Of a stretch of DNA of 18,104 nt, positions 705-10,452 are shown in pieces (within the stretch, counting starts at the first letter, position 1; each line of letters opens with the position of its first letter). Source of the DNA: a bacterium (GTDB lineage Bacteria > JAMCPX01); the NCBI GenBank assembly GCA_021792615.1, contig JAJYUJ010000045.1, forward strand, positions 1 through 18,104. Reading direction: 5' to 3'. The notes beneath the pieces are model-generated. The model made no database searches. It had not been told where the DNA came from and was given only the letters and a program-made list of their open reading frames with translations. A program made the position numbers and the translations under genes.

Positions 705-1547
705 ATGAGCGAAAAGGTTTTGACTATAGGACACAGCCCGGATGCAGACGATGCGTTTATGTTTTATGCGCTTACGCATAATAAACTGCCTATAACAGAC
801 ATGAAATTCGAACATGTACTGACGGATATAGAATCTCTGAACAAACGTGCAATGAGAAAGGGTAACGGCGAACAGCCCTTGCTTGATATAACTGCGGCTT
901 CACTGCATGTATATCCCTATATAGCGAAGGACTATCAGATACTGTCATGCGGCGCGAGTATGGGTAAGGGATATGGCCCCATCGTTGTGAGCAAGGATGC
1001 GAGGCTTGCGGGCGGTACGGAAATAGCCGTACCCGGAGAGTACACCTCCGCACTCCTCGCCTTAAAGCTCTTTATGACGGATTTCAAATACCGGGTCATG
1101 CCGTTCGACAAGATCATGCCTGCGGTCAAGAACGGTGAGGTCAAGGCGGGTCTTATCATACACGAGGGACAGATCACCTATGCCGACGACGGGCTGAACA
1201 TCATTGTGGATCTCGGCAAGTGGTGGCTCGAAAAAACAGGCCTGCCGCTTCCCCTCGGTATCAACCTTGTCCGCCGGTCTCTTGACGAAAAGCTGAAGCA
1301 CACGATTAACCAGTCCATTAAGGACAGCATCGCCTATGGTTTTGCCCATGAGGATGAAGCCATGAGCTATGCAGCGAAATACTCCAGGGGCCTCGATATG
1401 AAAAGGGTCAAGCAGTTCGCCCTGATGTACGTCAATGCTTATACCCTGGAACCCGGCAAGGAAGGCAGGGCCGGCATCGAAGAGTTCATCAGACAGGCAG
1501 CCGCCAATAAACTGATACCGGATGTAAAGGTGGAATTCATCTCGTAA
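705..1547 (+). CDS. mqnD: MqnD-family protein, probable 1,4-dihydroxy-6-naphthoate synthase or close paralogue
   Basis: The protein is 280 aa and has the full MqnD/MqnA solute-binding-protein-like fold length. MqnD converts cyclic dehypoxanthine futalosine to 1,4-dihydroxy-6-naphthoate in the futalosine route to menaquinone. Visible family features are GASMGKGYGPIVVS (about residues 83-96), VPGEYTSALLAL (109-120), the LIIHEGQITY block (150-159) with His153 at the position of the catalytic histidine of characterised MqnD, and WWLEKTGLPLPLG. The N-terminal ligand loop reads HSPDADDAF (10-18), whereas classical MqnD has SPCPNDTF, so this may be a divergent clade. AAGGA near 691 precedes the ATG. 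No other futalosine-pathway gene is in the window. Menaquinone would be the natural quinone for the HybB-type subunit encoded next door. Confidence 0.7.
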   Translation: MSEKVLTIGHSPDADDAFMFYALTHNKLPITDMKFEHVLTDIESLNKRAMRKGNGEQPLLDITAASLHVYPYIAKDYQILSCGASMGKGYGPIVVSKDARLAGGTEIAVPGEYTSALLALKLFMTDFKYRVMPFDKIMPAVKNGEVKAGLIIHEGQITYADDGLNIIVDLGKWWLEKTGLPLPLGINLVRRSLDEKLKHTINQSIKDSIAYGFAHEDEAMSYAAKYSRGLDMKRVKQFALMYVNAYTLEPGKEGRAGIEEFIRQAAANKLIPDVKVEFIS

Positions 1548-1748: not shown

Positions 1749-2201
1749 TCAGTGCATGATCTCCATCCAGTACGTTTTGAAGTCGAACCCGCAGAACGTC
1801 GGGCTGGTTTTGTTGTGGCATTGCACGCAGGTCTGCGCTGCATGACGGTTCAAACCCGCGTCCCAGACCTTTTTAAAATTTTTCATCGTGTCCATGTCCG
1901 AATAATCGCTTCCCTGCCCGTGGCACGCCTCACACTGCACATTGGGGAATGCTGCAGTACCGCCTGTCGTGTGGCACGACAGACATCCAGGGTCTGTCTT
2001 TTCCTTTGCAGGTAAAGCATCATATGCCCTGGCATGTGCGCTTGCCTCCCAGACCTTGAACTGGTTTTCATGGCACATCTTGCACGCCTCAACGCCGGCG
2101 TATGTGCGGGAAGCGGCCATTCCGCGGGATACAGAAGATATCAAAGACAATGACAGCACGGTAACAATCATGAGCACTCTTTCAAAACTATTCTTCTTCA
2201 T
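1749..2201 (-). CDS. Periplasmic tetrahaem cytochrome c (cytochrome c-554-like)
   Basis: The protein is 150 aa from the ATG at 2201, chosen because GGAGG lies seven bases upstream; nine extra codons are open before it. Residues 1-30 form a Sec signal peptide (KK, then a hydrophobic core, then GMAA). Four haem c motifs follow: CKMCH (40-44), CLSCH (73-77), CEACH (90-94) and CVQCH (125-129). The YAGVEACKMCHENQFKVWE region and the SAHARAY block with His56 are typical of the cytochrome c-554 family, where such histidines can be distal haem ligands. It is the last gene of the minus-strand operon, 23 bases after the HybB-like gene, and is the likely periplasmic electron partner of that membrane subunit. 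Cytochrome maturation genes are not in the window. Its redox partner and direction of electron flow cannot be read from sequence. Confidence 0.9.
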   Translation of the reverse strand: MKKNSFERVLMIVTVLSLSLISSVSRGMAASRTYAGVEACKMCHENQFKVWEASAHARAYDALPAKEKTDPGCLSCHTTGGTAAFPNVQCEACHGQGSDYSDMDTMKNFKKVWDAGLNRHAAQTCVQCHNKTSPTFCGFDFKTYWMEIMH

Positions 2202-2224
2202 ACGGTAACCTCCGATCTCCAGCC

Positions 2225-3373
2225 TCAAACATCATGGATAATCTCAACCGGTCCTTCTTCTTTTTCCTCGACGTGGACAAAGACATTGAGGTACTTTGCC
2301 GCATAAGCAAAAGCCAGAAATCCCATGGTCACGAGGAATACGGAGATCATTACCTCACCGAAGGCCGGGAAATACGTTGTTCCCGACGAGGCCTCTACGC
2401 CGGTTATTGCCACATCCAGTCTGTTCATGATAAATCCGATCACGACAAACAACGACGTAACAAATAATCCCTTTGCACTCGTCCTCACGGCAGGGATCAA
2501 AAGCAGGAAAAACGGTATTACAACCTGCACGAGCGTCTCTATATCGAACATGATGCTTTCGAATCTTGTCGAAAAAATATCGCCAAGCACACCTCTGCCG
2601 GCCATATCCAGTATCTTTATGGTAAGGTAAAATGCCATGACAAGCACATTGACCCTTGCAAGGCCATTGAGGAGGTTGAGCTCTATGCCCTTGCCGAGGA
2701 ACCTCATGCTGAGAAAAGATTCCATCGTCACCATTGCAAGACCGACAGACACCGCAGAGATGAAAAAGAACAAGGGAAGATACGGTGAGTACCACAGTGC
2801 GTACAACTTCGTCGGCACTATCAGGAACAGAGACCCAAGCGATGATTGATGCAGGGTCGAAAGAATGACACCCAGTATGGACAGCGGTATAATCAGTATG
2901 TGGATAAGGTGATTCAGCCTGTGCAGCTTCAATCGTTCGAAAACAACGGTGCTGAACTCGAGTCCAAGGACTGTAAGATAGAGCATAACACACCATGCGA
3001 CCTCAAACATCACGGAATGGGGATTCCAGAAGACGATGGGGTGCCATACATCGAACCACTTTCCAAGGTCGTATAGCAGACCGACTGCAACAAGCGAGTA
3101 CCCTAAAAAGCCGGTGAGTATTGCAGGCCTGAGGATTGGTTTATACTCATCGATACGGAAAATGTAGACGGTCAGCGCAATGATAAATGCCCCGGCTGCA
3201 AGACCGACGCCGGTTACCACATCGAACCCTACCCATAAGCCCCACGGGTATTTATTACTCAGGTTCGTGACGGCACCAAGGCCTTTTGTGTACCGTAGAA
3301 CAGTATAGTATACACCGAGCATCGTTATCGCGGCAATTACAATCCTCCAGAATGTTACCTTCGGCAGTTCCAT
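2225..3373 (-). CDS. HybB/NrfD-family integral membrane subunit (quinone-interacting)
   Basis: The 382-aa protein is almost entirely hydrophobic, with about ten predicted membrane helices, the length and layout of HybB-type members of the NrfD family. Recognisable blocks are NKYPWGLWVGFDVVTGVGLAAG near residues 40-61, YDLGKWFDVWHPIVFWNPHSVMFEVAW near 101-127, and STLHQSSLGSLFLI near 172-185. Such subunits carry no cofactor of their own and exchange electrons and protons between menaquinone and an attached iron-sulphur protein. The start has GAGAGG (3379-3384) overlapping the stop of the preceding small gene, so the two are probably translationally coupled. No hydrogenase large or small subunit is present, so despite the HybA/HybB likeness there is no support for a hydrogenase here. 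The partner set (ferredoxin, tetrahaem cytochrome) resembles the membrane redox complexes of sulphate and metal reducers. Confidence 0.9.
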   Translation of the reverse strand: MELPKVTFWRIVIAAITMLGVYYTVLRYTKGLGAVTNLSNKYPWGLWVGFDVVTGVGLAAGAFIIALTVYIFRIDEYKPILRPAILTGFLGYSLVAVGLLYDLGKWFDVWHPIVFWNPHSVMFEVAWCVMLYLTVLGLEFSTVVFERLKLHRLNHLIHILIIPLSILGVILSTLHQSSLGSLFLIVPTKLYALWYSPYLPLFFFISAVSVGLAMVTMESFLSMRFLGKGIELNLLNGLARVNVLVMAFYLTIKILDMAGRGVLGDIFSTRFESIMFDIETLVQVVIPFFLLLIPAVRTSAKGLFVTSLFVVIGFIMNRLDVAITGVEASSGTTYFPAFGEVMISVFLVTMGFLAFAYAAKYLNVFVHVEEKEEGPVEIIHDV

Positions 3374-3382
3374 AAATACCTC

Positions 3383-3601
3383 TCAATGTTTAGCATCTTT
3401 GACCTTTTCTCTTCTGTTCGTTAGCCACCATAATCCGGCGATCATGGCTCCGCCCATCAGGACCTTCGGCGTTAAAAAACTGCGATTTCGCAGCCTGTCC
3501 GCCAGCACCTTGAGCTGCTCTTGTTTGATATCAACTGAGGGTAGCTTATACGCGGCAGGTTGATTGAATAATTTCGCTAAGAGTGTATTCAATAGATTCA
3601 T
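3383..3601 (-). CDS. Small one-helix membrane protein resembling the C-terminal anchor of the upstream ferredoxin
   Basis: The protein is 72 aa and its ATG overlaps the TGA of the ferredoxin gene (shared bases 3598-3601), so it is very likely a real, coupled gene. Residues 1-44 are soluble and amphipathic, with a basic stretch (DRLRNR). One membrane helix spans about 46-61 and ends in WWLTNRREKVK. This end closely mirrors the anchor of the neighbouring ferredoxin: both have GG, then G(L/I)WW(L/I)T(N/S)RR and an acidic/basic VK tail. I know no named family for it. A role as an extra helix packing against the HybB-like subunit is inference from its position and from the shared tail. Confidence 0.75.
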   Translation of the reverse strand: MNLLNTLLAKLFNQPAAYKLPSVDIKQEQLKVLADRLRNRSFLTPKVLMGGAMIAGLWWLTNRREKVKDAKH

Positions 3602-4380
3602 GGCTTATCTCCTTTACCCGTGAGCTTTTTTTGTTCTTTGTGCTTGATTTCATATTTTTTGACCTCATCCCTGCGGCTCGTTATCCACCATATACCTGTC
3701 AATACAACACCTCCTACGACGACGATGGTCGGTACCTTTTCCAGGGCAGCCCATGTATAAACCGGAAGAGGCTTGTCCGGCAGGTTTATATTGAACGGCT
3801 CCCCGAGTTTCTCAAACGGAACATTTGACAAATACAGCACCGAAGTACCGCCGACTTCCTCCAGACCATAGAGGCGATCCACATAGGTATGCGGATTGTC
3901 CTTGATCCTTTTCTGCGCTTCTTCGATGAGCTGATCCCGATCACCGAATATGCTGGCACCGGTCGGACATGCCGCAGTGCATGCCGGTTCGGAGCCTTCC
4001 GCAACCCTGTCCGCGCACATGTAGCATTTCTGTATGTAGGGAACCACCCTGTCCCATTGATACTTCGGCACACTGAAGGGACAGGAATACATACAATACC
4101 TGCAGCCGATGCATTTGTTTTTATCGTAGGTAACCGGACCTGCTGCCGTCTTTGTGAAGGCCCCTACGGGACAGACTGATACACACGTCGGATTCTGGCA
4201 GTGCATGCACATCCTTCTTACATAGGTACCGGGTAGTCTTTCCTGGACCACGGTATAGGCTGTTGCAGAGAGGTTGTTCTCAAGGTCAAGGGGCAGACCG
4301 TTTCGCATCTTACATGCCTTTTCGCAAGCACCACAGCCGATACATTTGGTTGTATCAATGAGAATACCCATCTTGGCCAT
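3598..4380 (-). CDS. HybA-like ferredoxin with four [4Fe-4S] clusters and a C-terminal membrane anchor
   Basis: The protein is 260 aa. Sixteen cysteines fall in the four-cluster pattern of HybA/DmsB/NrfC-type electron-transfer subunits: C13, 16, 19, 23; C58, 61, 66, 70; C90, 93, 96, 100; C119, 122, 134, 138. A single hydrophobic helix at about 217-234 is followed by a strongly basic tail. It would relay electrons between the HybB-like subunit and an unknown partner. Unlike typical HybA it shows no twin-arginine signal at the N terminus; the frame is open upstream only to a stop about 48 bases before the ATG and has no alternative start or RR motif. AAGGAG at 4389-4394 supports the chosen start. 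The basic tail predicts a cytoplasmic C terminus, which would place the clusters outside, at odds with the missing signal. Confidence 0.9.
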   Translation of the reverse strand: MAKMGILIDTTKCIGCGACEKACKMRNGLPLDLENNLSATAYTVVQERLPGTYVRRMCMHCQNPTCVSVCPVGAFTKTAAGPVTYDKNKCIGCRYCMYSCPFSVPKYQWDRVVPYIQKCYMCADRVAEGSEPACTAACPTGASIFGDRDQLIEEAQKRIKDNPHTYVDRLYGLEEVGGTSVLYLSNVPFEKLGEPFNINLPDKPLPVYTWAALEKVPTIVVVGGVVLTGIWWITSRRDEVKKYEIKHKEQKKLTGKGDKP

Positions 4381-4453
4381 ATATCTGCTCCTTTCTGGTT
4401 TTATCCTGTCACATTCTATCCCCGGTTAAAATCATGTATGCGTATGACCCTTT

Positions 4454-5140
4454 CTAACGGGGTTTACCGAGGAATTCTTCTTCAAAATATTTCACAGCCT
4501 TTTCGTCCATACGGCTCAGCATACCTTCCGAAAGACAGCCGCCGTCCTGACTTGTACGCCCGACCTCATACTGCAGTTCATCCTTTACGTAGTGAAGGTT
4601 TTCCCCGAGTGCAAATTCCCGGAATCTCCGGATCTCCGCCTTGAGCCATTCGACGGCATCTTCCGCGATCTTCATTGCCTTGAGGTTTGCAGAAAGGTTT
4701 GTGGGCTTTACCGACAGTATCCAGCCGCTGTTATATGCACTCTTTGCAACCTCAGCAGGATTGGCAAGCATGAGCTTGTTTATCGCAGCTACTTCGCCGT
4801 CGACCGGTGACAGGAACGAAAGCGTTTTATTGCCGGATTTTACGGAAAACGCCTTTTCTCCCTGTTTGAGCGCCTTACCCTGTTCCGGGAACTCTATGCT
4901 TTCTATATCTCCTATTACCTTCCGGACAAAGTCGTCAAACCCGACACGTACCTCACCGTTGGACTGTATGTTCACCCAGGTGTGTCCGGGATAAAAGAAG
5001 GTACTTACCGGAACCCGGAAGTCGGAAAAATCAAGTTTTATCTTTTGCTCTTCCTGAGCCTTTTTACTCTTTAAACTCTGGATTACCAGATCCAGAACAA
5101 CGAACCCTATAATTGTTATTGCAACCATTATCGCTACCAT
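4454..5140 (-). CDS. Membrane-anchored GcvH-like (lipoyl-domain-fold) protein
   Basis: The protein is 228 aa. Residues 2-21 form a membrane helix followed by a basic stretch, which predicts a cytoplasmic soluble part. Residues 48-135 match the glycine cleavage H-protein fold: YPGHTWV, VGFDDF, IGDIESIEFPEQGK and SPVDGEVAAIN, then NSGWILSVKP. In an ungapped alignment the residue at the canonical lipoyl-lysine position is Asn104, with Lys105 next to it (SGNKTLSF), so ordinary lipoylation is doubtful. A C-terminal extension of about 75 residues with an acidic helix follows. Standard H proteins are about 125-130 aa. AAGGAGGA at 5148-5155 sits seven bases before the ATG. No gcvT or gcvP gene is present, so a role in glycine cleavage is unlikely; location within a redox operon suggests a carrier, assembly or scaffold role, which is inference. 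Confidence 0.8.
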   Translation of the reverse strand: MVAIMVAITIIGFVVLDLVIQSLKSKKAQEEQKIKLDFSDFRVPVSTFFYPGHTWVNIQSNGEVRVGFDDFVRKVIGDIESIEFPEQGKALKQGEKAFSVKSGNKTLSFLSPVDGEVAAINKLMLANPAEVAKSAYNSGWILSVKPTNLSANLKAMKIAEDAVEWLKAEIRRFREFALGENLHYVKDELQYEVGRTSQDGGCLSEGMLSRMDEKAVKYFEEEFLGKPR

Positions 5141-5164
5141 TTTAGTGTCCTCCTTTTTTTTATT

Positions 5165-5908
5165 TTACTCATTCAGCAAGAATGCCCTCATGAGCGGTTT
5201 CCATTCTTCTTCGTTGATGACCGAGGCAAGGCTCTCGATCATGATCCCACCGTCCGTCATGGTAATACCGATATCCTGCCTGACTATGCTATGGAGTCTT
5301 TCTGCTTCTATCTCCATCCATTGCCCGGCCAGCGCATCGTTTAACAGCCACTTCATGCTATTGCTGGAAACGGCTGCCGCGAGCAGCCATCCGTTATCAT
5401 ACGGTTCCCTGTTCACGATGCCGGCATCCTTTCCGAGAGATCGGTTTATCGCTACTATCGTGCCGTCTACCGGGCTCATCAGGGTACCCGTTTTGCCTCC
5501 GCATTGGACATGCATAAACGCCTTGCCGCTGTTCAGAATGTTTGTACCGGATATGAACTCTACATGCTTTATGCTACTCAGCAATTTACTTGCAAAACCG
5601 TCGATACCGATCTTTACCTTGTTTTCGCCGTCCTGCTTCACCCAGGTGTGTCCGTAATGATAAAAGTAATTCTTTCTGATTATGAAGCCTTTCACATCTT
5701 TTTCCATAACTACTGCAGGATATGCAGGGTTTTCTGCCGTTTCTTTGCTCGTAGCCTCGCCGTATTGAGTGCACTGTTGATACTCTCCTGACAAACACAT
5801 GCTTTTCGTTTTCATCTGGTCCACGGGGATCATCTTTTTGAGCGGAAATAAAGAGCAATAACCACACACTTGAATTTTCAGGAATGGACACCTTTTGATG
5901 TTTTCCAT
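5165..5908 (-). CDS. GcvH-like protein with N-terminal five-cysteine cluster; first gene of the operon
   Basis: The protein is 247 aa with no membrane helix. Residues 1-50 carry C7, C15, C18, C38 and C46 in the pattern C-x7-C-x2-C-x19-C-x7-C, which could bind an iron-sulphur cluster or zinc. Residues 81-170 have the H-protein fold: YHYGHTWV, IGIDGFASKLL, MSPVDGTIVAIN and PYDNGWLL. The canonical lipoyl-lysine position is glycine, with Lys139 immediately after it (GGKTGT), the same one-residue offset as in the neighbouring paralogue. Cys136 lies beside the site. The C-terminal region (about 175-247) is helical and acidic. The start is set by CCTCCTT on the plus strand at 5914-5920 (AAGGAGG in the transcript). 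It directly follows the sigma-54 promoter and is separated from the next gene by 24 bases. Confidence 0.8.
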   Translation of the reverse strand: MENIKRCPFLKIQVCGYCSLFPLKKMIPVDQMKTKSMCLSGEYQQCTQYGEATSKETAENPAYPAVVMEKDVKGFIIRKNYFYHYGHTWVKQDGENKVKIGIDGFASKLLSSIKHVEFISGTNILNSGKAFMHVQCGGKTGTLMSPVDGTIVAINRSLGKDAGIVNREPYDNGWLLAAAVSSNSMKWLLNDALAGQWMEIEAERLHSIVRQDIGITMTDGGIMIESLASVINEEEWKPLMRAFLLNE

Positions 5909-5938
5909 GGCAACCTCCTTTCTCTAACAATTGTATAT

Positions 5939-5954
5939 TGCATACTCTGTGCCA
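5939..5954 (-). promoter_or_regulatory. Sigma-54 (RpoN) promoter of the six-gene redox operon
   Basis: On the minus strand, 5954 to 5939 reads TGGCACAGAGTATGCA. The -24 element TGGCAC and the -12 GC fall with exactly the spacing of the RpoN consensus (TGGCAC-N5-TTGC); the only departures are A for G after TGGCAC and A for the first T of TTGC. Transcription would start near 5928, about 20 bases before the ATG at 5908, leaving room only for the ribosome site. The divergent NtrC-type regulator gene supplies an obvious activator. Confidence 0.8.
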
Positions 5955-6127
5955 CGCAGGCGGTATGAACATGCCACGGTATCATATTGATTTCTTAATT
6001 AAAGATAACATACAGAAAAACAAGCATATTTTAATAGTGTCGATATATTAAACAGGTGTGGTAAATTTCTACATAATCATATTGTTGAATTGTAATGACA
6101 AACTTGGAAATGCGTTCTATTTAATCC
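5955..6127. promoter_or_regulatory. AT-rich divergent regulatory region with possible activator sites
   Basis: This segment lies between the sigma-54 promoter and the sensor kinase start and would hold enhancer sites for the NtrC-type activator. The 9-base word ATCATATTG occurs at 5981-5989 and 6076-6084, 95 bases apart, close to nine helical turns. TGCCACG occurs at 5950-5956 and 5972-5978. TTAATTAA at 5996-6003 is a perfect palindrome. None is a proven site. I could not pick a convincing promoter for the kinase gene. Confidence 0.35.
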
Positions 6128-7735
6128 ATGAAGGCTTATATGGTACGCAGAGGCATAACATTCAAATTGATAGTGTACATCATCGTCTTGCTTATTTCTA
6201 TTCTCGGCATTGTGCTGTATCTGAACATCGAGGACCAAAAAAAGCAGCTCCTCAATGAGGTGATACGGGGGGCAACACAGTTCAGCGATACGGTTATCAA
6301 GAGCACAAAATATGACATGCTCAGAAACCAGAGGAGCAATGTCTACCGGATCATCACGTATATCGGGATGCAGCCGGGCATAAGCAGGGTACGGATCTTC
6401 AACAAGGATGGCTACATCATGGTATCCACGGACCCCGGAGAGATTGGAAAGTTTGTCAACAAAACAGAGGAACAATGTTATGCATGTCACGCTGTCGGCA
6501 AACCCCTCGAAAAACTTACTATGCCCAAGAGGACACGAATCTTCAACCTCGCAAACGGAAGCAAAGTGCTCGGCATGATTACGCCCATATACAATGAACC
6601 GGAGTGCTCGTCCGCATCCTGCCATGCACATCCCGCGGGTCAGAAGGTCCTGGGGGTACTCGACATCAGTATGTCGCTGAATACCATAGAGCGCGAGATC
6701 AAAGGGATGGAAATCCGTTCCGTTATCATAGGCATCATAACGATGTGTTTCCTTTCAATCCTTATGATCCTTATTATAAAAAGCATCATAGACAAGCCTA
6801 TCAAGACGCTGATCACAGGGACCCACCGCATAGCCGGCGGGAACCTCGATGAGCCGATCGTTATCAATACCCGTGACGAGATGGGAGAGCTTGCGAACGC
6901 ATTTAACGATATGATGCATAAATTAAGCGAGGCAAAAAACGAACTGCTCAATCTCGTGGAAACACTCGAGAACAAGGTCGAAGAAAGGACCCACGAATTG
7001 AAGGCAGCACAGGACAACCTGATCCGGTCTGAAAAACTGGCATCCATAGGCAAGCTGTCCGCAACCGTAGCACACGAGATCAACAATCCGATAACAGGGG
7101 TGCTCACCTACATAAAACTCATGCTCAAAAAATTACGCCAGGAAGATACCAGCGACGAAGACATCAAAAAGTACATAGATTATCTGTCCCTTATGGAGCG
7201 TGAGACAGAACGGACATCCGGCATCGTAAAAAACCTCCTCGATTTTTCACGGCAGCGGGAGCCCCACTATAAGCTTGTCGATATCAATACGATCATAGAA
7301 GAAACCCTGATGCTCGTCCGCAATCAGATAAACCTGCAGGGCATAGAGGTCATCAAATCTTTTTCCGCAATACCGCAGACCATGGCAGATGCAGACCAGT
7401 TGAAGCAGGCGTTTATGAATATCATCATCAATGCCTGTGAGGCAATGAAAGAAGGAGAAAAAAGGCTTACCGTAGAAACCGGTTTTGATAATTTGAAAAA
7501 GGACATTAAAATAAGTATTAAGGATACGGGGACCGGCATACCCGAAGAGGATATGAATAAGGTATTTGAACCGTTTTACACAACAAAGGAAAAAGGAACA
7601 GGGCTTGGGCTGGCAGTGGTGTATGGTATCATCACGAAGCATAAGGGCAGGATAGATATCGTAAGCAAACGAGGGAAAGGAACGACCATAGAACTTACCA
7701 TACCGCTGAACGAGGACAAGAACCCTGCGCAATAA
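6128..7735 (+). CDS. Membrane sensor histidine kinase with haem-binding periplasmic domain
   Basis: The protein is 535 aa. A first membrane helix (about 12-32) is followed by a periplasmic domain (33-195) with two haem c attachment motifs: CYACH (117-121) and the rarer C-x4-CH motif CSSASCH (160-166). A second helix (about 197-217), a HAMP region (218-270), a coiled coil (about 270-300) and the kinase core follow. His316 in ATVAHEINNP is the phosphorylated residue; N, G1, F and G2 boxes are NIIINACEAM, DTGTGIP, FEPFYTT and GTGLGLAV. It would report periplasmic redox state or a haem ligand such as a gas to the NtrC-type regulator two genes downstream. The start is uncertain: the ATG at 6128 has no ribosome site, while GAAGG at 6130-6134 would serve the ATG at 6140. 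The protease gene begins eight bases after the stop. Confidence 0.9.
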   Translation: MKAYMVRRGITFKLIVYIIVLLISILGIVLYLNIEDQKKQLLNEVIRGATQFSDTVIKSTKYDMLRNQRSNVYRIITYIGMQPGISRVRIFNKDGYIMVSTDPGEIGKFVNKTEEQCYACHAVGKPLEKLTMPKRTRIFNLANGSKVLGMITPIYNEPECSSASCHAHPAGQKVLGVLDISMSLNTIEREIKGMEIRSVIIGIITMCFLSILMILIIKSIIDKPIKTLITGTHRIAGGNLDEPIVINTRDEMGELANAFNDMMHKLSEAKNELLNLVETLENKVEERTHELKAAQDNLIRSEKLASIGKLSATVAHEINNPITGVLTYIKLMLKKLRQEDTSDEDIKKYIDYLSLMERETERTSGIVKNLLDFSRQREPHYKLVDINTIIEETLMLVRNQINLQGIEVIKSFSAIPQTMADADQLKQAFMNIIINACEAMKEGEKRLTVETGFDNLKKDIKISIKDTGTGIPEEDMNKVFEPFYTTKEKGTGLGLAVVYGIITKHKGRIDIVSKRGKGTTIELTIPLNEDKNPAQ

Positions 7736-7742
7736 TTGACGG

Positions 7743-8300
7743 ATGACCTATATTTACCTACAACCATACGATGGCTGCGATAATGAACTATTGGATGAAA
7801 TAGCGAGAAGGCTTATGGATACATTACCTATACCGGTACGGGTGTTACCCTCAATAGAAAGTCCTGTTTATGCATTCGACCCCGACAGGAAGCAGTATTA
7901 CTCTACCAAAATTTTGCGCTACATCGTCAACAGCCACAGCGATTCCGCACTCAGGACAATCGGCATTACGGCTGTCGATCTGTTTATACCCATCCTTACC
8001 TATGTCTTCGGAGAGGCTCAACTGGACGGGAAGGCTGCAATCGTTTCCGGTGCGCGGCTGAAGCAGGAATACTACGGATTAAAACCTGATAAGCGCCTGT
8101 ACGTCGAAAGATTGTTTAAAGAACTTATGCACGAGCTGGGACACACCTTCGGGCTGACCCACTGTGATCTGTCCTACTGCGTCATGCATCTCTCGAACAA
8201 CGTTACTGGCATCGACAAAAAGACGGCAACGTTCTGTGAGAACCATAGGGATCAGCTTATCAACAAATTAAAGGAATTGGAGATACCGTATGGCAAGTAA
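7743..8300 (+). CDS. Archaemetzincin-family zinc metalloprotease
   Basis: The protein is 185 aa, the usual size for archaemetzincins, with no signal peptide or membrane helix, so it is predicted to be cytoplasmic. The catalytic motif HELGHTFGLTH gives zinc ligands His130, His134 and His140 with Glu131 as the catalytic base. The family's second, structural zinc site follows: Cys141, Cys146 (CVM with Met148 as the metzincin Met-turn) and Cys165. The last ligand of the family pattern, normally the second Cys of a CxxC pair, is His168 here (CENH). Bacterial members have no well-established substrate. The gene sits between the sensor kinase and its regulator, seven bases after the former, and overlaps the regulator start by 11 bases, so it is co-translated with the two-component system. 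The ribosome site is weak. Confidence 0.88.
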   Translation: MTYIYLQPYDGCDNELLDEIARRLMDTLPIPVRVLPSIESPVYAFDPDRKQYYSTKILRYIVNSHSDSALRTIGITAVDLFIPILTYVFGEAQLDGKAAIVSGARLKQEYYGLKPDKRLYVERLFKELMHELGHTFGLTHCDLSYCVMHLSNNVTGIDKKTATFCENHRDQLINKLKELEIPYGK

Positions 8301-9657
8301 ACCAAGCATTATGATAGTTGACGATGAAGAGATTGTGAGAACATCCCTGTCAAGCTGGCTGCTTGAGGACGGCTACGACGTCGTACCGGTAGAGAGCGGT
8401 AAGCTGGCGCTTGAGGCGCTGAAAAAAAAGAGCTATGATTTGATGCTCGTGGACCTCAAGATGCCCGAGATGGACGGCCTGGAGCTGATGAAAGAAGTAA
8501 AAAAGTTCCTGCCGGATCTGCCGGTTATCATCATGACGGCCTACGCGACCGTCGATACGGCGGTAAAGGCCATCAAGGAAGGCGCTTTCGATTACCTTAT
8601 GAAACCGTTCGATCCGGAGGAGATCTCGATCACGATCAAAAAGATCATGAAGCAGCAGATGCTCGAGCAGGAGAACATCTACCTGAGAAAAGAACTTGCG
8701 AAACAATTCCAGTTCCATCAGCTCTACAGCAAGAATAAAAAGATGCAGGAGATTTTCGAACTCATAAAAAACGTCGCAAAGACCGACGTTACGATCCTGA
8801 TCCACGGCGAGACGGGAACAGGAAAAGAGCTCATTGCACGGGCACTCCATGCGGAGAGCCTGAGAAAGGACAGGCCTTTTGTTCCGGTGTCGTGCACCTC
8901 TCTGACGGAGACGCTGCTCGAGAGCGAGCTGTTCGGACACGAGAAGGGTGCATTCACCGGTGCTTCAACCATGGTCAAGGGTATGTTTGAGATGGCGGAC
9001 AAGGGTTCCATTTTTCTTGACGAGATAGGAGACATAAGCCCCAAGTTACAGATGGACCTGCTGCGCGTCCTGGAAACAAAGGAGATCGTAAGGATTGGCA
9101 GCACACAACCCATACCGGTCGACGTCAGGGTAATTGCAGCCACGAACAGGGACCTGGGTAAAGCGATCGCGAACGGCATCTTCAGGGAAGACCTGTACTA
9201 CCGGTTGAATGTCATAACGATCGATATACCTCCCTTGCGTGAAAAACCGGAAGACATACCCCTGCTGACGGAACAACTGATCGAAAAGGTCAATAGAGAG
9301 ACCGGAAAATCTGTAAAAAGGGTAAGTCAGGATGCCATGGCACTGCTTATGCAGTACCGGTGGCCCGGTAACATACGGGAATTGAAAAATGTCATAGAAA
9401 GGAGCGTTGTGCTGGCAAAGGAAGATATCATAACGTTGAATGAAGTCGGCCCGTGCTTCGGACGAAACGTGAAGGACGGCATAAGCAGCGGAGGCAGTGC
9501 TGATATGTCGCTTGACCAGATGGAAAAGAATCATATAACCTCGGTACTGAAGAACAACAACTGGAATATCAGTACCTCTGCACAGATACTCGGTATAGAC
9601 AGGACGACCCTGTACAACAAAATCAGGAAGTATAATCTCGGTGAGGACAACAAATAA
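8290..9657 (+). CDS. NtrC-family response regulator, sigma-54-dependent activator
   Basis: The protein is 455 aa with the standard three-domain plan. The receiver domain (about 5-120) has acidic residues D11-D12, phospho-acceptor Asp55 (LVDLKMPEMDG), Thr and Lys (MKPFD) at the usual places. The AAA+ domain (about 145-380) has Walker A GETGTGKE (173-180), the sigma-54-contacting loop GAFTGA (220-225) and the Walker B region GSIFLDEIGD. The C-terminal Fis-type helix-turn-helix (about 410-450) includes AQILGIDRTTLYNKI. It would be phosphorylated by the haem-type kinase and act at the sigma-54 promoter at 5939-5954. GGAG in the end of the protease gene serves as ribosome site, and the reading frames overlap by 11 bases. 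Confidence 0.95.
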   Translation: MASKPSIMIVDDEEIVRTSLSSWLLEDGYDVVPVESGKLALEALKKKSYDLMLVDLKMPEMDGLELMKEVKKFLPDLPVIIMTAYATVDTAVKAIKEGAFDYLMKPFDPEEISITIKKIMKQQMLEQENIYLRKELAKQFQFHQLYSKNKKMQEIFELIKNVAKTDVTILIHGETGTGKELIARALHAESLRKDRPFVPVSCTSLTETLLESELFGHEKGAFTGASTMVKGMFEMADKGSIFLDEIGDISPKLQMDLLRVLETKEIVRIGSTQPIPVDVRVIAATNRDLGKAIANGIFREDLYYRLNVITIDIPPLREKPEDIPLLTEQLIEKVNRETGKSVKRVSQDAMALLMQYRWPGNIRELKNVIERSVVLAKEDIITLNEVGPCFGRNVKDGISSGGSADMSLDQMEKNHITSVLKNNNWNISTSAQILGIDRTTLYNKIRKYNLGEDNK

Positions 9658-9663
9658 TTCGCG

Positions 9664-10452
9664 ATGGAAAACAAGACAAACTTCTGGAATCATATAGAAG
9701 AATTAAGAAAACGGCTCATCATGTCCATCCTCTTTGTGGCTGTCGGGGCAACGGCGGGCTTTTACTTCGCGGCGGACCTGCTCTATTTTATCGAATTCCC
9801 CCTGCGCTCGAGATTGCATGTGTCTTTTCACGCCCCCTACGTTTATCTCATAACGGTCGCCAAACCGTTGAAGCTCGTTTATATTACGCCCATAGAAGCT
9901 ATCTGGACGTATCTGAAGCTTGGTCTGATCGCAGGACTTATTATCACGCTGCCGCTCGTGCTCTATGAGATCTGGCTCTTCATAAAACCGGGCCTTTATC
10001 CGGAAGAAAGGAAGTATGTGAGGCTGTTCGTTATCGCCGGCGGGATTTTTTTCCTGATAGGCGGGGGGTTCAGCTTCTTTATCATATTGCCGTTCGCGAT
10101 ACACTTTTTGCTCAGTATCGGTGCCGGCAATCTTGTCCCGATGCTGAGCGTCGGCGAGTATGTGGATTTCTGTCTTCAGTTCATGCTGTCGTTCGGACTC
10201 ATATTCGAGCTTCCCTTCGTCCTGCTTATCCTCGTGGCCATGGGTATTGTATCGCCCAAGGGGCTTGCGGAGAAAAGGCGGTACGCAATAGTCGGGGCGT
10301 TCATACTCGGTGCCATATTGAGTCCGAGCCCGGATGTTTTTAATCAGACACTCGTAGCTGTTCCGCTGATCGTGCTGTACGAGATAGGCATACTTCTCTC
10401 GCGCATGTTTGTCAGCAGAAGACAAAAAAACAAAGAACAAGCCGCGTCCTGA
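9664..10452 (+). CDS. tatC: Twin-arginine translocase subunit TatC
   Basis: The protein is 262 aa with six membrane helices. Family marks are the N-terminal FWNHIEELRKRL, with the conserved Glu and Arg residues that bind the RR signal, the periplasmic loop between helices 1 and 2, GLYPEERKYV near residues 113-122, and LPFVLLILV. TatC recognises twin-arginine signals and, with TatA/TatB, exports folded, often cofactor-bearing proteins. No tatA is in the window. It begins six bases after the regulator stop and has no clear ribosome site, so it is probably the last gene of the kinase-protease-regulator operon. Co-location with a redox operon is suggestive, but the ferredoxin there lacks a visible RR signal. 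Confidence 0.93.
   Translation: MENKTNFWNHIEELRKRLIMSILFVAVGATAGFYFAADLLYFIEFPLRSRLHVSFHAPYVYLITVAKPLKLVYITPIEAIWTYLKLGLIAGLIITLPLVLYEIWLFIKPGLYPEERKYVRLFVIAGGIFFLIGGGFSFFIILPFAIHFLLSIGAGNLVPMLSVGEYVDFCLQFMLSFGLIFELPFVLLILVAMGIVSPKGLAEKRRYAIVGAFILGAILSPSPDVFNQTLVAVPLIVLYEIGILLSRMFVSRRQKNKEQAAS

Follow-up and report, generated by a model that had tools for sequence, protein, structure and literature searches.

HybAB-type membrane complexes of unknown role are carried by many anaerobes, iron reducers such as Geothrix included. Here, we describe a module on an 18,104-base stretch of bacterial DNA (the window, which is the complete contig JAJYUJ010000045.1 of a 2.54-Mb, 99.5% complete metagenome-assembled genome, or MAG) in which such a complex is kept together with a predicted haem-bearing histidine kinase and with proteins that resemble the glycine cleavage H protein (GcvH) without its lipoyl lysine. 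The joint retention of these three components suggests an undescribed wiring of respiration to signalling. Each enzyme comes from a known family, and a search of the open-access literature found no paper on this cluster or on the receiver-GcvH architecture described below. The reading that we favor, with a probability of roughly one half, is a HybAB-type quinone/cytochrome c redox complex that is linked, through lipoate-free GcvH-like proteins acting as cytoplasmic adaptors, to a dihaem sensor kinase for redox state or nitric oxide (NO). If this is true, the cassette, by using a GcvH domain in a new role to connect HybAB complexes with a haem sensor, would be a testable, and possibly post-translational, control point of respiration.

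A gene set that recurs across phyla

The module of the window comprises nine open reading frames (ORFs), whose coordinates and domain content were confirmed by ORF and profile checks. The minus-strand operon encodes, 5' to 3', gcvH1, gcvH2, hybA, a 72-amino-acid (72-aa) one-helix protein, hybB and a tetrahaem cytochrome (c4h), and the plus-strand operon encodes the haem kinase (HK), an archaemetzincin (amz) and an NtrC-type regulator (RR), followed by tatC. The first-pass annotation of this DNA had pointed to tight spacing and overlapping frames, and overlaps of 4 bp (c4h/hybB), 4 bp (72-aa protein/hybA) and 11 bp (amz/RR) are indeed present. It also proposed that the block is a conserved unit, and the neighbourhood test that it outlined bears this out: among 61 non-redundant GcvH-like loci, HybA and/or HybB is found in 50 and the haem kinase in 42. 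Most of the loci that deviate are contig ends; L074 is a clear deviation.

Fifty loci emerged when 84,980 species genomes were scanned; the scan used a profile of six GcvH-like sequences, a profile of all of them being too diverse, and probably under-counts the receiver and Cys-rich types described below. These loci belong to cultured Geothrix (G. fermentans, G. fuzhouensis and G. limicola) and to MAGs of Holophagaceae, Ignavibacteria/Bacteroidetes, KSB1, Neomarinimicrobiota, Schekmanbacteria, Tectomicrobia, Eisenbacteria, Zixibacteria, Myxococcota and one gammaproteobacterium. In about ten phyla, then, GcvH-like proteins, HybA, HybB and the haem-c sensor kinase recur together, and many copies add the archaemetzincin and the NtrC-type regulator. 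Three layouts are recurrent: that of the window; an Ignavibacteria type, with gcvH-hybA-hybB-gcvH-kinase-regulator-archaemetzincin in a single row; and a Geothrix type, hybA-hybB-kinase-receiver-gcvH. In a sample of 60 genomes, the distribution of the GcvH-like protein is nearly matched by those of HybB and archaemetzincin of the module type, and G006, a genome of the window's own family, has none of the three. The other HybB loci, retrieved as controls, all lack a GcvH-like neighbour (one of these, L125, is the G031:C86 stretch beside that genome's own module).

The HybB tree requires seven gains or losses of the association with GcvH, at least six of them on supported branches. The cassette has therefore joined several HybAB lineages, and horizontal transfer may lie behind part of this repeated association. 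A chance neighbourhood was rejected on the strength of this tree and of the recurrence across phyla, and the genes are well supported as a co-occurring unit. Since the HybAB partners stem from several lineages, the constant part is the signalling cassette and not the respiratory enzyme.

GcvH-like proteins without the lipoyl lysine

The two GcvH-like proteins of the window, gcvH1 (5165..5908, minus strand; GCV_H 3.4e-19) and gcvH2 (4454..5140, minus strand; GCV_H 2.7e-21), each consist of a GcvH-like domain without the lipoyl lysine and a DGG motif, preceded by a Cys-rich domain (CPFL..CGYC..C..C) in gcvH1 and by a transmembrane (TM) helix in gcvH2. The AlphaFold model of gcvH1 has the GcvH fold, with TM-scores of 0.84-0.90 (by target) for the best matches among solved GcvH structures. 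Module proteins share with the GcvH of glycine cleavage this fold and the HxW, PVxG and GW motifs, but they fall under the NCBIfam GcvH cut-offs and differ in three respects. First, all 6 of the ordinary GcvH proteins examined from the same genome set have lysine in the lipoyl-lysine column of the alignment, but only 4 of 96 module proteins do; the residue is Gly in gcvH1 and Asn in gcvH2. Second, the C-terminus is extended and bears a near-invariant DGG, a feature that the ordinary GcvH proteins do not have. Third, the N-terminal additions vary, from the TM helix and the Cys-rich domain to a receiver domain. With 92 of 96 lacking the lysine, the module proteins, judged by their sequences, cannot be ordinary lipoate carriers, and that candidate role was rejected. 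A caution for annotation follows: many genes labelled 'glycine cleavage H protein' have products that cannot accept lipoate at the usual position.

Could these proteins carry a group in some other way? In the sHdr pathway of sulfur oxidation, a redox gene cluster has likewise recruited two or three GcvH-like proteins, called LbpA, and module proteins might be redox or acyl carriers of this kind, holding lipoate or a different group on a lysine that has shifted. They have the GcvH fold, and Lys or Arg stands one residue past the canonical position in 58 of 96. However, that residue is Arg in 27 and neither Lys nor Arg in 38, and the canonical lysine kept in just 4 of 96 module proteins is kept in 95 of 95 LbpA proteins (PMC6067878). 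LbpA genes also have hdr and lplA neighbours, whereas the module genes have neither; no hdr-type cluster was seen beside the module loci, where hdr genes were not searched by profile. We regard a shifted-lysine carrier as very improbable.

Some further variation was seen among these proteins. The Cys-rich domain occupies the N-terminal 50 aa of gcvH1 (CPFL..V.YC....KKMIP....S.CL..Y..C..Y), has no Pfam match and is doubled in one relative (L157:11883-12839); its cysteines make an Fe-S or Zn site possible. A distinct second Cys-rich domain (CIW..AGVLNYKLCD...C..CPLDAAL) occurs in Ignavibacteria and others. Another short GcvH-like type, in which the ESVK motif is replaced (AGKYIG, TRKWIG), is found at L153:6767-7228 and L161:5230-5676, the L153 copy beside a haem kinase.

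Receiver domains fused to GcvH

A receiver domain (PF00072) is present on 25 of 117 GcvH-like proteins, at E about 1e-25 to 1e-29 where scanned. One more receiver-GcvH protein, found in L154 next to a further HybAB set with its dihaem kinase, brings the total to 26, each with the phospho-Asp. In the 42 loci with the kinase, 21 have only the receiver-GcvH protein, 15 have only the archaemetzincin, none has both and six have neither. A search of plasmids for receiver-GcvH proteins gave zero matches. In the TM-receiver-GcvH form, the GcvH domain should sit in the cytoplasm, because only there can the receiver meet the kinase. The first-pass annotation foresaw neither these fusions, which lie outside the window, nor the loss of the lipoyl lysine, nor the recruitment of HybAB partners from several lineages.

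Perhaps the lipoate-free GcvH fold is a novel output of response regulators, such that phosphorylated receiver-GcvH proteins, and receiver-less relatives like gcvH1 and gcvH2, dock on HybAB-type complexes from the cytoplasm and gate electron flow according to a dihaem redox/NO sensor. We put this forward tentatively, as less probable than the reading that we favor. If it is correct, the two-component system would control respiration post-translationally.

The putative haem sensor kinase

The membrane histidine kinase (HK, 6128..7735, plus strand) has a periplasmic sensor of the sCache fold with a CXXCH motif (CYACH) and, 43 aa further on, a CX4CH motif (CSSASCH). Nearly all complete module kinases have both motifs, with exceptions in L040, L043 and L096, and the CXXCH lies inside the extracytoplasmic sCache fold. 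Structure comparison of the sensor model returned sCache sensors, WalK ranking first and GSU0935 (3b42), a haem sensor, ranking sixth. The module kinases resemble the sCache_heme sensors GSU0582 and GSU0935 in their periplasmic sCache fold, CXXCH motif for haem c and attached signalling output, but they add the near-invariant CX4CH 43 residues on. Of the 15 best sensor matches among the 60 sampled genomes, 14 came from module-bearing genomes, within the module or on contigs that resemble its split halves. Covalent haem and NO binding have been shown for other sCache haem sensors that are joined to signalling modules (PMC12889525), and because of this analogy the input of the module kinase is likely to be redox state or NO. 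An apparent fusion of kinase and archaemetzincin in L108 was rejected as an artefact of out-of-frame ORF extension.

The NtrC-type regulator, sigma-54 control and the archaemetzincin

The regulator (RR, 8290..9657, plus strand) is an NtrC-type sigma-54 activator with a receiver, an AAA+ domain containing GAFTGA and a Fis helix-turn-helix. The first-pass annotation had placed the redox operon under sigma-54, in agreement with a -24/-12 promoter, TGGCACAGAGTATGCA (5939..5954, minus strand), in the shared intergenic region about 30 bp ahead of the gcvH1 start; the genome has rpoN, and the box is conserved when seven of the family's intergenic regions are aligned. Invariant columns of the same alignment define a second block, TGTcGAtATatTaaACAggTGTG (6036..6060, unstranded), of the form TGT..ACA, about 85 bp upstream of the -24/-12 box. 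This block could be an upstream activator site for the NtrC-type regulator. With a strong box defined as one that scores 14.5 or more out of 15.5 and lies no further than 150 bp ahead of a gene, strong boxes precede 8 of 57 first-of-operon module genes versus 1 of 392 control genes (p=3e-7, a value that is overstated since the genomes are related), and they are confined to loci without a receiver-GcvH protein.

The kinase architecture, receiver-AAA+-Fis regulator, GAFTGA and -24/-12 promoter of the window are those of the NtrC, ZraSR and AtoSC two-component systems, but the window has an archaemetzincin between kinase and regulator, and other lineages have the receiver-GcvH protein instead. 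The archaemetzincin (amz, family M54; 7743..8300, plus strand) scores 165 bits with NCBIfam NF033823, above the cut-off of 145, and its HExxHxxGxxHC-x4-CxM is intact. The full family motif, HEXXHXXGXXHCX4CXMX17CXXC, reads HELGHTFGLTHCDLSYCVM in the window, with the final CXXC replaced by CENH; the HExxH..HC..CxM part is conserved in 17 of 17 module archaemetzincins. The module would place the bacterial archaemetzincin in a physiological context, which it has largely lacked so far.

The predicted HybAB complex and its probable electron carriers

The hybB product (2225..3373, minus strand; Pfam NrfD 3e-18) is an NrfD/HybB-like, quinone-reactive subunit with 10 TM helices. Its closest NCBIfam models are HmcC (319 bits, cut-off 550) and HybB (282 bits, cut-off 450), and hybA (3598..4380, minus strand) likewise stays under the cut-offs of HmcB (250 bits, cut-off 420) and HybA (201 bits, cut-off 263). 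HybA is a ferredoxin-like subunit with a C-terminal TM helix and 16 cysteines for four [4Fe-4S] clusters, all of which are conserved in the alignment. HybB retains the equivalents of E. coli HybB D58, R89, Y99, D109, Y141, E148, E155, H184, E291 and R329, listed for hydrogenase-2 (Hyd-2) as residues of the quinone site and ion path (PMC8076601). The combination of a HybA-like 4x[4Fe-4S] protein with an NrfD/HybB membrane subunit, usually accompanied by a multihaem cytochrome, is common to the module and to NrfD complexes of the HmcABC, HybAB and NhcABCD types. The module differs from these in having no 16-haem HmcA, NhcA or hydrogenase, in adding the GcvH-like proteins and a dedicated haem kinase and, in the window, in a HybA without a Tat signal.

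The tetrahaem cytochrome (c4h, 1749..2228, minus strand; Pfam Cytochrome_C554 8.8e-10) has four CXXCH motifs and an N-terminal hydrophobic export segment and is a probable periplasmic electron carrier. It occupies the equivalent position in L033-L038 and L048 and is conserved only in the window's family; other lineages have 3-, 5-, 9- or 13-haem cytochromes within or beside the operon, or none. The 72-aa protein (3383..3601, minus strand) is also family-specific and has no Pfam or NCBIfam match; its similarity to the HybA C-terminal helix is weak (E about 1e-5 to 1e-6). The first-pass annotation listed both as members of the block, but they lie outside the widely conserved core. Its wider proposal of one regulated respiratory complex is supported in part: a conserved, regulated unit is borne out, and the predicted quinone reactivity of HybAB is backed by the conserved catalytic residues.

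Is the complex then simply an Hmc/Nhc-like quinol:cytochrome c oxidoreductase, with the GcvH-like proteins as passive assembly or structural subunits and regulators that merely control expression? The conserved HybAB residues, the sigma-54 control of the operon and the varied multihaem cytochromes would all fit. However, receiver-GcvH fusions beside the kinase are hard to square with a passive subunit, as is the movement of the cassette among HybAB lineages with an ordinary enzyme, and we judge this explanation rather unlikely. At the other extreme, HybAB might sense the quinone pool or periplasmic cytochromes, with its state passed by the GcvH-like proteins to the haem kinase and genes elsewhere controlled. 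Such a sensory device would explain why kinase and GcvH-like protein are constant while the HybAB lineage and cytochrome vary, and why some loci have no cytochrome; but HybB retains catalytic and ion-path residues beyond the needs of a sensor, and the NtrC-type regulator has a conserved promoter within its own module. We consider it the less probable of these two, though well ahead of the shifted-lysine carrier.

Two additional arrangements of HybAB genes were seen. In L113, L114, L115, L116 and L118, a separate conserved cluster encodes a Tat-less HybA, a HybB-hexahaem cytochrome fusion, a kinase, response regulators and an NtrC-type regulator. In L095:1-11000, two back-to-back HybAB sets, with a HybA Tat signal in one only, share one dihaem kinase and three GcvH-like proteins.

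A working model for the module

In the adaptor model, HybB would exchange electrons with menaquinone, and HybA would be the relay, in either direction, between HybB and a multihaem cytochrome of the periplasm, the tetrahaem protein in the window. The GcvH-like proteins would be cytoplasmic, mostly membrane-tethered adaptor or regulatory subunits in contact with the HybAB complex. The kinase, with its covalently bound dihaem sCache domain, would sense periplasmic redox state or NO and, in the window, would act through the NtrC-type regulator on the sigma-54 promoter to turn on the gcvH1-gcvH2-hybA-hybB-c4h operon. The archaemetzincin, as a co-expressed cytoplasmic protease, may serve to remove a component of the signalling path or a GcvH-like one. 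Wherever regulator and protease occur, the output would be transcriptional; in lineages without them, the receiver is on the GcvH-like protein, so that the kinase would act directly on the complex.

Three observations weigh against this model. The mutual exclusion of receiver-GcvH protein and archaemetzincin is mostly carried by Holophagaceae, and some GcvH-like pairs are distant from HybAB (L074, L042). In addition, a comparison of N-termini found no Tat signal on HybA of the window or of most of its HybB clade, while HybA of other module lineages has one; yet the charge orientation of HybB is normal and the HybA tail suggests an N-out topology. A cytoplasmic HybA would change the electron path. 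A HybB inverted in the manner of SoeC was considered as an account of the Tat-less HybA and rejected, as the loops have the same charge balance as in E. coli HybB in each of the 17 module sequences compared.

Host genome and neighbouring genes

The host MAG encodes rpoN, c-type haem assembly genes and dsrA, and a second, Hmc-like HybAB set with a 16-haem cytochrome lies on another contig (C67). Because of this gene content, the host is probably a sulfite or sulfate reducer. In the window and in several relatives, the module adjoins mqnD (705-1547, plus strand) of the futalosine pathway to menaquinone, an adjacency consistent with menaquinone as the quinone partner. On the other side, tatC (9664-10452, plus strand) directly follows the NtrC-type regulator, as it also does in G001, G002, G004 and G005. 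It was rejected as a module member, being the sole tatC of the genome and next to the regulator in only some relatives.

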